Assembly: GCF_014048475.1 (NCBI RefSeq)
Contig: NZ_NWUS01000003.1
Location: 124,001 to 188,000, forward strand
Reading direction: 5' to 3'
Length of the DNA: 64,000 nt
From: Bombella favorum
Lineage (GTDB): Bacteria; Pseudomonadota; Alphaproteobacteria; Acetobacterales; Acetobacteraceae
A program made the translations under genes and the position numbers. The notes under the pieces are model-generated. The model worked only from the letters and a program-made list of their open reading frames with translations, was not told the origin of the DNA and ran no database searches. Below are positions 56,597 through 64,000 of this stretch, in pieces; positions within the stretch are counted from its first letter, which is position 1; every line of letters starts with the position of its first letter.

Positions 56597-58351
56597 TTAG
56601 AACGTACTACCGCCCAGCCTTACGCCCTCTCCAGTAGTTGAGTCGACCTCGCAGAGATAAGGGCCAGCAGCCAGAAGCTCGATGGACAGGAAAAGCGGTT
56701 GAGCTGTTTTCTCCGCCCTATCAGACAGAACAAGACGAGCCTCGCCCTTGGTCCAACGGCAAGGAGATGCTTCTTGCACATCCCACCCATCCCGTTGGGG
56801 CGCGGAGAGAAAGCCCGTCACCTCTTCCCGCATACCATCTTCCCAAAAGAGTTGTACGCGACTAACCAACACACCTAGCCAGCGTCTATCATCCACAAAA
56901 GGACCAATCACATCACAGGGACGACTGATGCGGGAGATAAGCCTAACCTCATCGCATGTCTCTGTCAGACGGAACAGATACCGTTTCCCAGCCTTGCGAA
57001 CCAAAGGCAAAGCATGACCTGATGGAGCCAATACAGTCAGATCAGGATCGGTGACTAAGTCTCTCGTTTCATTTATTCCTAATATGGAACGTTCCTGAAT
57101 CTTACGATAAACAGGCTCCACAAAGGCCCGCTGAACACCTAGCGGTGCCGCTGCATCTTTCTCCCAGCACCGGCTAATACTTTCGGACCACTGGCCGGCC
57201 TGAAAAACAAAGCCATGACGATTGCCAGTTTCTAGGTAACTTTCCGTCAGCGCACCATCGACCTCGACAATGGCGTGAGGCTCGACCTCGAAATGCCAAT
57301 AATCATATTCCGTAAGGCTTCGATCATAGAAAATAGAAGAGCCATTGACCAACATCCGTACCGGGATGAAATGGCCCTCCAGCAAAAGACAATGCTCTGC
57401 CGTAACGAACATATCCTTCTGCGGTACATTATCCGCCAGTGCATTCCGCCGGATGCATACAGGCCAGCCCGCCTCATCATCGGGTAATTCAGGCCGAACA
57501 GAAACATGCCCTTGCCCAACCCACGTAACCCGTCGAAGACCCTGTGACTGCCCCTCGGCCGTAAAGACCTGCACGGAATCCCCTACAGCTAACGTCTCCA
57601 CGGCTACGGTTCCCGTGTCCGTGCGGACCATACTGCCGGGCAGATAACAGGTTATGACACCACCCCTTCCATCATCATGACCATTATTTCTGGTAAAATT
57701 ATAGCCATAGCCCGTGATATTCCCCAGAAAATCCCGCTTGACCGTACCGTTAACTCGTAGATTAAACGGATCACCTTGCAGCGTTGTTGTCCGCCCGAGG
57801 CTCAAAAAACCCAGGGCATCAATCCCATCACCAATTTTTGTCCGGTCCGTGCTGGGGTCGTAAACAGCCCCGACAGACTGCGTATTCGGAAAGTCCATGA
57901 CAAAATTTGAGGGAATTTGTGTTGTTGGTCTACCGAGACCGTCCACAAAATTAACTGGAACATCAAGCCGGACACCAAACCCCTGCACTTCTATCCGCAG
58001 CTCACCAGCATTAGGCCCCACCGTAATGGAGGACACTGCAGAAGCACTCAACAAACTGGAACGAATAACAAGGCGCCCCCCATCCAGCGTAAGCGAATTG
58101 CCTAGCCCTAGATTGACGAACCCCCCACCTACATAAGCTGTTGCGCCCCCCTGCACAGTGATGGAACAGTCACCACGCACCTGCCCTAAGAGAGAAGACA
58201 GGTCTACCTGAACAGGATCACCCGGTGAGGTATCCCGCGTGCGGGTCACAACGATGGATGAAAGCCCCCCAAAATCCAAAAGACTGGGGATTGATCCACT
58301 ACCGTAGATAGTGGCTTTGCCAGCTTCCAACCTGATTAATGCCATGGCCAT
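56597..58351 (-). CDS. Hint-domain surface-type protein
   Basis: 584-residue protein with an N-terminal beta-rich part (residues 1-230, repeated short strands rich in Gly and Val, like passenger or adhesin domains) followed by a Hint domain of the Hint_2 type. The Hint domain starts with the nucleophile Cys235 in ITCYLPGSMVRTDTGTVAVETLAVGD and has block B VTAEHCLLLEG with Thr317 and His320. These residues allow N-S acyl shift and autocleavage. About 200 further residues follow. No Sec signal is visible, so export may be by another route. Gene stands between AT-rich flanks; the family is frequent in Acetobacteraceae but its role is not established. Confidence 0.8.
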   Translation of the reverse strand: MAMALIRLEAGKATIYGSGSIPSLLDFGGLSSIVVTRTRDTSPGDPVQVDLSSLLGQVRGDCSITVQGGATAYVGGGFVNLGLGNSLTLDGGRLVIRSSLLSASAVSSITVGPNAGELRIEVQGFGVRLDVPVNFVDGLGRPTTQIPSNFVMDFPNTQSVGAVYDPSTDRTKIGDGIDALGFLSLGRTTTLQGDPFNLRVNGTVKRDFLGNITGYGYNFTRNNGHDDGRGGVITCYLPGSMVRTDTGTVAVETLAVGDSVQVFTAEGQSQGLRRVTWVGQGHVSVRPELPDDEAGWPVCIRRNALADNVPQKDMFVTAEHCLLLEGHFIPVRMLVNGSSIFYDRSLTEYDYWHFEVEPHAIVEVDGALTESYLETGNRHGFVFQAGQWSESISRCWEKDAAAPLGVQRAFVEPVYRKIQERSILGINETRDLVTDPDLTVLAPSGHALPLVRKAGKRYLFRLTETCDEVRLISRISRPCDVIGPFVDDRRWLGVLVSRVQLFWEDGMREEVTGFLSAPQRDGWDVQEASPCRWTKGEARLVLSDRAEKTAQPLFLSIELLAAGPYLCEVDSTTGEGVRLGGSTF

Positions 58352-61846: not shown

Positions 61847-62056
61847 ATGAGCCACTCCCTAACCCTGCCTATCATCGGCCTGAAATGCGAGGGCTGCATC
61901 CGCTCTCTGACCCGTGCCCTTGAAGCCTCCCCAGCCATTGAGACAGCCACTGTCACGCTCGACCCGCCACAGGCGCACATCATTTTCGCTGGCCCCGCCC
62001 TCTCTAGGGAGGACTGTGCGCTCCTCATTCAGAAGGCCGGTTTCGAGACGGCCTAA
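61847..62056 (+). CDS. copZ: CopZ-like heavy-metal-associated protein
   Basis: 69-residue cytoplasmic copper chaperone with the ferredoxin-like HMA fold. The metal motif is GLKCEGC with Cys14 and Cys17; the remaining SLTRALEASPAIETATVTLDPPQAHI and LIQKAGFETA are typical. It is divergent from the copper operon. A P-type ATPase partner is not encoded in the window. Confidence 0.9.
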   Translation: MSHSLTLPIIGLKCEGCIRSLTRALEASPAIETATVTLDPPQAHIIFAGPALSREDCALLIQKAGFETA

Positions 62057-62060
62057 AGAA

Positions 62061-62096
62061 AAGAACCACCGGGGTCCATGGCCCCCGGTGGTTCTT
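62061..62096. terminator. Stem-loop after copZ
   Basis: AAGAACCACCGGGG (62061-62074) and CCCCGGTGGTTCTT (62083-62096) form a perfect 14-bp stem with an 8-base loop. It lies between convergent copZ and the first microcin-like gene and can serve both. Confidence 0.85.
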
Positions 62097-62142
62097 CAAT
62101 ATCCATATCACCGCCCTGAACAGGCAGTCGTGTCATGGTAGA

Positions 62143-62559
62143 TTAGAAAAGTCCGCCACCCTTGGGCAGCAGGCTGCCTGTCAGGAAGGACTGCACCGCA
62201 CCATCACGGTAGCCCTGTGTCCCAACATAACCACCGGACAGACCCAGCATTGCGCCCGTCAGGCCACCAAACGCCAGTCCCAGAATCACGCCGACGGCCT
62301 CAGCAATCACGCCAACACCGATGACACCGCCTGTACCGTTGGCACCACCGTTAGCACCACCTGTGAGGCCACCAACGGCCGCACCGACAACACCATCCAC
62401 GATGCCGCCAACGAGGCTATCTGCCAAACCAAGCGAAGCACGCACAGGGAAAAGGCCAGTGCTGCTATTGCTGCTTCCTGAAGAACCCGTCCCGTCACGG
62501 TAGCCGAAGAGACCAGCACCAGATACCGCACCAAGCTCGTTAAAAGAAAGTTCACGCAT
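62143..62559 (-). CDS. Microcin-like precursor 1 with double-glycine-type leader
   Basis: 138-residue peptide, likely a secreted class II-type microcin or related bacteriocin precursor. The N-terminus MRELSFNELGAVSGAG closely follows the leader of microcin V (MRTLTLNELDSVSGG), but the cleavage pair is Gly14-Ala15 instead of Gly-Gly. The mature part (about 123 residues) is Gly-rich with many GxxxG-like spacings and long apolar segments (VIGVGVIAEAVGVILGLAFGG), so it may insert in membranes. It has no Cys. An AAAGG ribosome site precedes the ATG. It is paralogous to the gene at 62822 (shared GLADS and GVIGVG/GVLGIG segments). The target is unknown. Confidence 0.78.
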   Translation of the reverse strand: MRELSFNELGAVSGAGLFGYRDGTGSSGSSNSSTGLFPVRASLGLADSLVGGIVDGVVGAAVGGLTGGANGGANGTGGVIGVGVIAEAVGVILGLAFGGLTGAMLGLSGGYVGTQGYRDGAVQSFLTGSLLPKGGGLF

Positions 62560-62583
62560 TTCTAGAACCTTTCAATAAACTCA

Positions 62584-62599
62584 CACTCAATTGCGAGTG
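62584..62599. repeat. Inverted repeat between the microcin-like genes
   Basis: CACTC (62584-62588) and GAGTG (62595-62599) flank AATTGC, 25 bases upstream of the microcin-like gene 1 start. It may be part of a leader hairpin or an operator; the rest of the divergent region (62600-62821) is strongly AT-rich and has no open frame long enough for an immunity protein. Confidence 0.35.
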
Positions 62600-62821
62600 G
62601 GAGCAGTATGCATTAAAAAATGGAAATATGTTTTCATTATGTCGCTGTTATTTTTGATTTTTTACCATATTTTTTATAATTTATTACCTACGCACTCCTA
62701 TTTTGTACTTTTCCTTATTTTTAAATCTACCTTCTCTGTTTTTTAACATTAATTCCCTAGAGTCCCGCATCGGTGACAGTCATAGAGACTGCCCAACCCT
62801 CTGTAGTTTAAGGTACAAAAC

Positions 62822-63232
62822 ATGCGTGAACTTAGCGTTGTAGAACTGGATGCCGTTTCTGGTGCTGGTTTTCTGGGCGACCTATTGGGTCTTGGCGGTT
62901 CCTCCAACCGTGCTCAGGGTACCGGGACCGGGGTATCTAACGGCTTGGCAGACTCCATCCTCGGCGCTATCGCCGGTGCTTCCATCGGTGCAAACAGCGG
63001 TATGATTATCGGCGGCATACACGGCGGTGACGGCGGTGGCGTCCTCGGTATTGGGTCCATTGGTCAGGCTGTTGGTCTGATCGTGCCGACCATCATGGGT
63101 GCCATCAACGGTTGTATTCTGGGTGCTATCTACGGCTTTAGCAACGGCCAGACATGGATCAACCAGCTGATCCAGGGTACGGCTAACGGCACAATCGGTC
63201 AGGGACCGAATGCTGCTGCTATCCGTATCTAA
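62822..63232 (+). CDS. Microcin-like precursor 2 with double-glycine-type leader
   Basis: 136-residue Gly-rich precursor. The leader MRELSVVELDAVSGAG is nearly the same as in precursor 1 and again has Gly14-Ala15 before the cleavage point, leaving about 121 residues. The mature part contains one Cys (NGCILGA) and apolar, small-residue-rich segments (ILGAIAGASIGAN, GLIVPTIMGAI). The paralogue relation to precursor 1 spans the whole length. An AAGG ribosome site lies 8 bases before the ATG, and a strong terminator follows. It is convergent with the exporter gene. A two-peptide bacteriocin or a self/immunity variant are both possible. Confidence 0.78.
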   Translation: MRELSVVELDAVSGAGFLGDLLGLGGSSNRAQGTGTGVSNGLADSILGAIAGASIGANSGMIIGGIHGGDGGGVLGIGSIGQAVGLIVPTIMGAINGCILGAIYGFSNGQTWINQLIQGTANGTIGQGPNAAAIRI

Positions 63233-63257
63233 AACCAGCTTTCACCCTAAATCTCTC

Positions 63258-63301
63258 TAAAAAATCCCCGCCTGTTTTTCGGACAGGCGGGGATTTTTTT
63301 C
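63258..63301. terminator. Bidirectional rho-independent terminator
   Basis: AAAAATCCCCGCCTGT and ACAGGCGGGGATTTTTTT form a perfect GC-rich stem with a TTTTTCGG loop between convergent precursor 2 and the ABC exporter gene. Confidence 0.95.
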
Positions 63302-63321
63302 TAAAATAGACGTCCTTCCTA

Positions 63322-64000
63322 TCAAGCGGGACTAGGGCTGGCAGCTCCAGCCACAGGTGAGGCCGAAACACCCCCTCCCTGCGACAGATTAGCCATCATC
63401 TCGGCTGGAACACCCATAACAAATATCCCATCCGCTCTTTCCGCCGTACCGGGACGATGGGTTACAACTACTCGGGTAATGGGCAGCTCATTCAACACCG
63501 CTTCCACAGCCTGTTCAGAGGCAGGATCAAGATTGCTCGTTGCTTCATCAAGGAACAGAATACGGGGAGCCTGATACAGCGCACGAGCAAGAATCAAGCG
63601 TTGCCTCTGCCCACCGGACAACGTACTCCCCATCTCACCGACAATCGTTTCCAAGCCCATCGGCATACGTTGGATATCTTCATGAATCTGTGCATTTCTT
63701 GCACATTCTGCCACCCATTCTAGGTCCATCTCATCATCAAAGCCTGAAATATTCTCAGCAATGCTGCCAGAAAAGAGAATATCATCCTGAAGAACACCAG
63801 CAATCCGGGCGCGATAAGCCTCCCTGTTAGAGGCTTTCAGTTCCATACCTTTCCAGAATATCTGGCCCTCTTCAGGCTGGATAAGCCCCATCAACAACCC
63901 CAACAGGGTGGATTTGCCACAGCCTGAAGGCCCAACAATCGCCAGACTTTTCCCCGGATAGACCTTTAGATTCAGGTGACGGAACACCCATGTGTCTTCC
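63322..64000 (-). CDS. CvaB-type peptide exporter ABC ATPase, partial
   Basis: C-terminal part of an ABC transporter whose 5' portion lies beyond the right edge; the frame stays open to base 64000 (residues EDTWVFRHLNLK). The nucleotide-binding domain is complete: Walker A GPSGCGKST, signature LSGGQRQRLILARAL, Walker B RILFLDEATSNLD and the H-loop VVVTHR. The AQIHEDIQRMPMGLETIVGEMGSTLSGGQ stretch is characteristic of CvaB/RaxB-type exporters, which carry an N-terminal C39 peptidase that cleaves double-glycine leaders. The peptidase and membrane domains are outside the window and must be checked. It should export the two precursors next to it. Confidence 0.85.
   Translation of the reverse strand, partial: EDTWVFRHLNLKVYPGKSLAIVGPSGCGKSTLLGLLMGLIQPEEGQIFWKGMELKASNREAYRARIAGVLQDDILFSGSIAENISGFDDEMDLEWVAECARNAQIHEDIQRMPMGLETIVGEMGSTLSGGQRQRLILARALYQAPRILFLDEATSNLDPASEQAVEAVLNELPITRVVVTHRPGTAERADGIFVMGVPAEMMANLSQGGGVSASPVAGAASPSPA

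Follow-up and report, generated by a model that had tools for sequence, protein, structure and literature searches.

What does an acetic acid bacterium of the bee environment export through a peptidase-containing transporter that is encoded beside two small, glycine-rich genes? This question is raised by the right end of a 64,000-nucleotide stretch of Bombella favorum DNA (assembly GCF_014048475.1, contig NZ_NWUS01000003.1, positions 124,001 to 188,000, here G000:C3:124001-188000; genome of 1.97 Mb), which we refer to as the window. A first-pass annotation, made from the letters of the sequence, had read the locus as microcin-like, with two precursor genes (here pre1 and pre2) and an adjoining CvaB-type exporter, whose gene extends beyond the window end. 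Our analysis confirms this observation and supports the interpretation in part: the locus is a Cdz-like or microcin-like peptidase-exporter module of bee acetic acid bacteria, whose cargo varies and is in part encoded at a distance. The reading that we favour, at a probability of roughly 60%, is a self-contained module for type I secretion, built around a peptidase-containing ATP-binding cassette (ABC) transporter (PCAT), that exports two membrane-active glycine-zipper peptides, most likely antibacterial ones.

Bombella species colonise beehives and have been associated with larval protection (PMC9147383). The available part of the same article describes a BAGEL4 screen that covered 22 Bombella genomes without detecting a bacteriocin, and it names B. 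apis MRM1 and B. intestini. For Commensalibacter, the accessible text of another study reports a bacteriocin exporter gene in all of its genomes (PMC10149009). Literature searches on bacteriocins, microcins, type I secretion, and Hint domains in Bombella and acetic acid bacteria, and on DUF5862, with most subscription papers outside their reach, showed no description of the locus among the papers listed; the single paper on Hint domains dealt with cellulose. Similarly, when class II microcins were searched together with alphaproteobacteria, no paper using the latter word was found among the matches listed.

Two glycine-zipper precursors next to a complete export machinery

The two precursors have the lengths and leaders given by the first-pass annotation; they are encoded divergently, and the exporter gene is convergent with pre2 (Table 1). 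In both leaders, V, L, and L occupy positions -4, -7, and -12. The leader pair exceeds chance: a strict leader pattern, run on open reading frames (ORFs) of 45-400 amino acids, matched exactly pre1 and pre2 in the window and had no match in any of 100 windows of this length generated with a second-order Markov model. The two proteins are 43% identical over residues 1-125, and glycine makes up 30% (pre1) and 27% (pre2) of the mature parts. The first reading of these parts as long and GxxxG-rich also holds up. The 13 GxxxG pairs of pre1 compare to a mean of 7.9 in composition shuffles (reached by 43 of 2000), the 15 pairs of pre2 to a mean of 7.2 (reached by none of 2000), and each mature part contains a run of six glycines at a spacing of four that is uninterrupted by proline or charged residues. 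Judged by eye, the C-termini are LLPKGGGLF (pre1) and GQGPNAAAIRI (pre2).

The ATPase stretch inside the window carries the exporter signature that the first-pass annotation had quoted. To the right of position 64000, the sequence provides what that annotation had proposed to look for, a C39 peptidase domain and an HlyD-type gene; in addition, it contains a gene for TolC. The complete exporter combines C39 peptidase (PF03412, E 3.3e-35), ABC_membrane, and ABC_tran domains in a single protein (Pfam). At the C39 site, Gln, Cys, His, and Asp are conserved in 16 of 16 aligned rows, which represent 15 distinct loci (the own exporter is included twice; 15 of the 18 other loci entered the alignment, that is, all except L061, L103, and L104). 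The HlyD gene scored 59.7 bits with Pfam HlyD_3 (cut-off 22.2) and 141.3 bits with TIGR01843, below the cut-off of 208.65, and the TolC gene scored 258.1 bits with TIGR01844 (cut-off 225.15).

Table 1. Coordinates of the precursor genes, the secretion genes, and neighbouring features. Positions refer to the window unless they are preceded by L004.
Feature	Position	Strand	Description
pre1	62143..62559	-	138-residue precursor: 15-residue double-glycine (GA) leader and 123-residue mature part
pre1 leader MRELSFNELGAVSGA	62515..62559	-	hydrophobic residues at -4, -7, -12
pre2	62822..63232	+	136-residue precursor: 15-residue double-glycine (GA) leader and 121-residue mature part
pre2 leader MRELSVVELDAVSGA	62822..62866	+	
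ABC exporter (PCAT), C-terminal part in window	63322..64000	-	ATPase stretch holds RMPMGLETIVGEMG
Whole exporter gene	L004 3323-5521		732 residues
HlyD gene	L004 5518-6933		after the exporter gene, overlapping it by four bases
TolC gene	L004 7054-8472		divergent from HlyD/exporter
Left flank gene of module	61847..62056	+	69-residue protein, heavy-metal-binding-like by eye alone
Divergent intergenic region	62560..62821	.	A+T-rich, promoters expected
Terminator-like hairpin after pre1	62061..62086	-	
Terminator-like hairpin after pre2	63271..63291	+	with T run
Hint_2 (intein-like) protein gene	56597..58351	-	584 residues; not in module; nearest in window, 3.8 kb from pre1

Of the PDB chains that align with almost all of the exporter, the bacteriocin transporters 8vp3 and 4ry2 matched best; the lowest E-values belonged to P-glycoprotein-like chains. 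The plasmid collection yielded 3187 matching records, all below 60% identity; among the 40 listed are a Gluconobacter plasmid (51.6% identity), a 'colicin V biosynthesis protein' from Serratia (43.5%), and, from Salmonella, a record with the annotation mchF for microcin H47 export (42.7%). The mchF and colicin V biosynthesis proteins align over ~95% of the exporter at ~43% identity. Some plasmids of Gluconobacter and Kozakia encode a related exporter; a looser pattern detected leader-like ORFs on them, but these are not of the pre1/pre2 type.

Two more specific assignments were rejected. The NHLP bacteriocin exporter models are the best of NCBIfam for this protein (NHLM_micro_ABC2 for the partial ATPase in the window, NHLM_micro_ABC1 for the whole exporter), yet the scores stay below the cut-offs (TIGR03796, 506.6 vs 853.3 bits; TIGR03797, 365.1 vs 709.4 bits). 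Exporters of the HlyB/RTX type have a peptidase-like domain without the catalytic cysteine. This cysteine is present here, and the score with TIGR01846 is 363.4 bits, compared to a cut-off of 725.55. A second ABC exporter of the same genome (G000:C4:13231-15147) is 31% identical and aligns only from residue 62, so that it is without most of the C39 part; it is present in 9 of 11 Bombella genomes (E 1e-60).

The module is present or absent as a unit

Among 11 Bombella genomes, the exporter (at least 81% identity) is present in seven (G000-G004, G006, and G008) and not in the other four (G005, G007, G009, and G010). Here, G000 is the genome of the window, G001 B. intestini, G002 B. mellum, G003 B. 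apis MRM1, and G008 B. pluederhausensis. B. intestini and the window genome share 99% identity in both precursors and in the exporter. Both precursors are kept in G001, G002, and G003, G008 has pre2 without pre1, and G004 has kept the exporter with no precursor beside it. In G005 and G009, two of the genomes that do not carry the module, ~100 bp separate the left flank gene from a gene, MATE-like by eye, that comes after TolC in other genomes. We therefore consider pre1, pre2, and the ABC, HlyD, and TolC genes to constitute one presence/absence module, be it through gain or through loss; the comparison draws on two genomes that are alike at this site and thus not independent.

The leader is retained where the cargo changes: in the position of the precursors, G006 encodes five different short peptides that have the leader (L073 11209-12805). 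By eye, FPP(E/D)-like motifs are common to three of these peptides and an N.GVI(I/V)G stretch to three, unlike glycine zippers. A 54-residue ORF with two predicted membrane segments lies among them (L073 12312-12476).

Leader peptides at remote loci accompany the exporter

When the bare leader (20 residues) was used as the query against the 11 whole Bombella genomes, 17 matches were obtained, all of them on precursor ORFs. Every one of the seven genomes with the exporter had two or three matches, and the four genomes without it had none. The search was not exhaustive, in that it missed one remote precursor of the window genome and the remote one of G002, and it found two of the five G006 peptides. 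The genome of the window contains two further leader ORFs (C1, 992.0-992.4 and 994.5-994.8 kb), which lie on either side of a Hint_2 gene; an autotransporter gene is next to the latter. Relatives of these two remote families occur in four and six of the seven exporter-carrying genomes, and in none of the four others. The one-sided probabilities, 0.003 for the leader matches (7/7 vs 0/4) and, for the remote families, 0.015 and 0.11, overstate the evidence because the genomes are related.

Physical linkage cannot account for the co-occurrence of the remote genes with the exporter. Of the four genomes without the exporter, three (G005, G007, and G010) do carry another ABC exporter (31-32% identical) and had no leader match; therefore, not just any type I exporter is sufficient. 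As judged from the leaders, some putative substrates of the exporter are encoded far from the module. The two remote precursors of the window genome are poorer in zipper motifs than pre1 and pre2, with five GxxxG pairs in one (reached by 31 of 2000 shuffles) and none in the other.

Selection on the precursors and possible exchange of pre1

pre1 and pre2 behave as real genes, being conserved in relatives and showing low ratios of nonsynonymous to synonymous substitution (dN/dS). These ratios are 0.07-0.18 for pre1 (3 pairs), 0.09-0.32 for pre2 (6 pairs), and 0.04-0.08 for the exporter. Among G000, G002, and G003, synonymous divergence amounts to 0.15-0.26 in pre1, 0.85-1.51 in pre2, and 0.68-1.26 in the exporter. 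DNA identity between species is 0.90-0.93 in pre1, 0.86-0.88 in the flank gene, and 0.77-0.85 in the exporter, HlyD, and TolC genes. Because synonymous divergence and DNA distance of pre1 are lower than those of the exporter, the data suggest that a pre1 tract was exchanged between Bombella species, perhaps recently and possibly together with the flank gene, which is less clearly included (61847-62559).

Relatives beyond Bombella

A profile of 12 precursors, leader included, in which nine leader positions are invariant, matched 11 of 299 genomes of the family (a sample evidently without G003). Class-wide, 2 of 385 genomes were matched at E 1e-4; both were already known and no genome was added. 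All 19 family matches sit in ORFs that start with the leader, an outcome that the profile favours because it holds the leader itself. Thus, the leader pattern whose absence from homologues would have spoken against the first-pass annotation is retained. Seven of the matched genomes belong to other genera (five genera), and all seven have a related exporter of 53-63% identity, in a search that covered 18 chosen genomes. In another genus, five tandem leader peptides of 100-115 residues are encoded beside the exporter (L075 11720-13963).

Across 23 diverse precursors chosen by the leader pattern, mean column identity is 25%; full conservation is limited to M1, E8, and G14, with R2 and V12 almost as constant. 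One homologue from another genus matches the Pfam MccV model at E 3e-4, below the curated cut-off, and two of the 23 reach E 0.1. The NCBIfam class IIb bacteriocin model TIGR03949 matches two of the 23 (best E 8.2e-5), with most other NCBIfam matches being unrelated and weak, and Pfam DUF5862 matches eight (best E 1.1e-9). Residues 45-122 of pre2 match phrog_32251, a phage protein family of unknown function, at E 1.7e-8, and the plasmid and phage collections contained no relatives of pre2 at E 1 or better. A 236-residue ORF by a HerA-like ATPase gene (G000:C2:195793; named by eye), which was matched in the initial search, was rejected as a locus without leader.

Discussion

The closest counterpart of the module that we recognise is the Cdz system of Caulobacter crescentus (CdzA, CdzB, CdzC, CdzD, and CdzI). 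For the published systems, we rely on the available parts of the cited papers. Both Cdz and the Bombella locus are from alphaproteobacteria, and both combine two small glycine-zipper proteins, type I secretion, and divergent transcription (PMC5380434). Cdz-like systems have been defined by proteins of 60-151 residues with a leader ending in G[G/A/S] and by type I secretion genes no more than 10 kb away (PMC5380434); pre1 and pre2 have 138 and 136 residues, leaders ending in GA, zippers, and an adjacent type I secretion system. The likeness rests on architecture and described features, and not on the CdzC and CdzD sequences, which in the accessible text of that study gave no matches when used as BLAST queries (PMC5380434). 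CdzC and CdzD are shorter, at 86 and 84 residues (PMC5380434), and in contrast to Cdz the Bombella module includes a TolC gene, has further precursors at a remote locus, and contains no recognised counterpart of the small membrane immunity protein CdzI. None of five names looked up for acetic acid bacteria and their order appears in the main text of the Cdz paper (PMC5380434).

Class II microcins, exemplified by CvaC with CvaB, CvaA, and TolC, share with the module a C39 exporter, a membrane fusion protein, an outer-membrane channel, and a double-glycine leader that is hydrophobic at -4, -7, and -12 (PMC10233263, PMC11494933). To this extent, the first-pass designation as microcin-like stands. 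However, the described class II microcins have a core of 60-90 residues and normally an adjacent immunity gene (PMC10233263), and they come from Enterobacterales. The precursors depart from this class in that their mature parts are longer (123 and 121 residues) and no adjacent immunity gene was found. They fit the Cdz glycine-zipper bacteriocins better, and the architecture is closer to Cdz than to microcin V.

We propose that the C39 domain of the exporter would recognise the MRELS..EL..VSG(A/G) leader and cut after GA or GG, and that the cut glycine-zipper peptides would pass via HlyD and TolC to the cell exterior. Cleavage and export of pre1 and pre2 are highly probable given the machinery next to them. 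Once outside, the two hydrophobic peptides of ~120 residues, joined by the leader peptides of the remote locus, would most likely insert into or aggregate on the membranes of neighbouring cells, as CdzC and CdzD do. By analogy, a membrane-active antibacterial role is probable, if clearly less certain than export. The exported peptides could also remain attached to the surface of the producer, and dependence on cell contact is a tentative suggestion to which we give less than even odds.

Several results argue against an antibacterial zipper system. Beyond the five genes between the flanks, no conserved ORF is left in the module, and this missing immunity gene is the main weakness of a bacteriocin assignment. 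It is not fatal, because a Bacteroides microcin class with double-glycine leaders has no immunity protein (PMC10233263) and because the immunity genes of Cdz-like systems are hard to identify (PMC5380434). The profile search that the first-pass annotation had proposed did not place the precursors in a bacteriocin family: up to E 1, pre1 and pre2 have no match to the bacteriocin models of NCBIfam, and their sole match in Pfam is DUF5862 for pre2, below cut-off. An AlphaFold model of pre2 (12 sequences), predicting two long helices (residues 42-68 and 77-104), is poor, with a predicted local distance difference test score (pLDDT) of 57, and too uncertain to rely on. Given that the G006 peptides are not glycine zippers and that one remote precursor of the window genome is without any GxxxG pair, the exporter is not zipper-specific. 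Finally, pre1 and pre2 are under purifying selection and, although evolving faster than the exporter, show no sign of positive selection.

Some of these points would suit exported peptides of a non-toxic, structural kind that aggregate at the cell surface and act, inside the bee gut or the hive, as adhesion material or an amyloid-like matrix, with the exporter serving as a general route. No immunity gene was recognised, several different leader peptides per genome share a single exporter, the precursors are under purifying selection, and the remote ones adjoin Hint_2 and autotransporter genes, that is, a surface-protein neighbourhood. We regard such a role as unlikely, though it is the strongest of the alternatives, since the patchy occurrence of a clean module, the replacement of cargo, and its tandem multiplication suit competition factors better than housekeeping surface material. 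A true class II microcin, diffusible and receptor-dependent like microcin V and with its immunity gene elsewhere in the genome, is somewhat less likely still; both this possibility and the Cdz-like reading imply exported toxins, so that their odds overlap and are not exclusive. Leader, PCAT, membrane fusion protein, and outer-membrane factor all match, and one homologue resembles MccV weakly, but mature length and the lack of an adjacent immunity gene in the module speak against it. Very improbable is a function as peptide pheromones for cell-cell communication. PCATs of Gram-positive bacteria also export signals, and the sharing of one exporter by several peptides would be compatible with this role. 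However, the module contains no receptor or response regulator gene, and we know of no peptide signal near ~120 hydrophobic residues, the mature parts here being far longer.

An antibacterial zipper module, our preferred reading, would provide a testable candidate for competition among bee symbionts, in keeping with its patchy distribution and the changing leader-peptide cargo, and would extend Cdz/microcin-type export to the Acetobacteraceae. As some Bombella species have the module and others do not, assays of killing and immunity would be easy to set up.

Candidate immunity genes and transcription signals

The sole small membrane-like ORF between pre1 and pre2, of 51 residues (62591-62746, plus strand), is shared with G001; G002 has a 36-residue ORF with a similar stretch and G003 and G008 have none, and we rejected it as a gene. 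Beside the precursors of G023, a lipoprotein-like ORF (by eye) of 84 residues was noted (L018 7343-7597). The hairpins that follow pre1 and pre2 are only suggestive of terminators, because the region has six such sites where 2.3 are expected, and a sigma-70 consensus scan of the pre1-pre2 intergenic region returned no site.

Hint_2 genes as neighbours of the precursors

The precursor profile led to eight loci in other genera, and at five of these (L018, L042, L044, L045, and L046) a Hint_2 gene lies within 1.6 kb of the precursor; the stretches fetched for the remaining three (L043, L047, and L048) contain none. With 1 to 18 Hint_2 genes per genome, the expectation at 2 kb, a distance set after seeing the data, is ~0.16 such loci. 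The probability of five or more is 1e-7, a value that includes G154 and G204, sister genomes with one and the same locus. Loci L084 and L090 show the same pairing and were left uncounted, as they were fetched around Hint_2 genes. The stretches of L075 and L076, which encode exporter and leader peptides, have no Hint_2 gene; L073 likewise has none in the stretch and one just past its end, ~5 kb from the peptides (G006:C6:92034).

The Hint_2 neighbours are proteins of 486-524 residues and occur also at the remote locus of the window genome (L041 7040-9829). Their first cysteine and a TxEHC motif are kept in 12 aligned proteins, and a fold search with the middle part of a neighbour gave good matches only to bacterial intein-like (BIL) or intein domains. 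Such Hint_2/BIL proteins are a possible partner next to the precursors and not the exporter system itself. Searches for literature that joins intein-like domains with double-glycine leaders found none, with most subscription papers outside the search. The link raises a new question on intein-like domains. One speculative answer, to which we assign a low probability, is that a single leader-cutting exporter of acetic acid bacteria serves dispersed peptide genes, several of them Hint_2-paired, as an undescribed two-component surface weapon: Hint_2 would process, anchor, or cap the zipper peptide, which might also explain why there is no ordinary immunity gene.

The arrangement of the pairs varies. 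At L042, genes for HlyD, exporter, precursor, and Hint_2 form a row on one strand, and at L044 the precursor/Hint_2 pair occurs twice in tandem. At L046, precursor and Hint_2 gene stand back to back on a small contig (G275:C3, 9710 bases), perhaps a plasmid, which also encodes a 505-residue ORF that appears mobilisation-like by eye.

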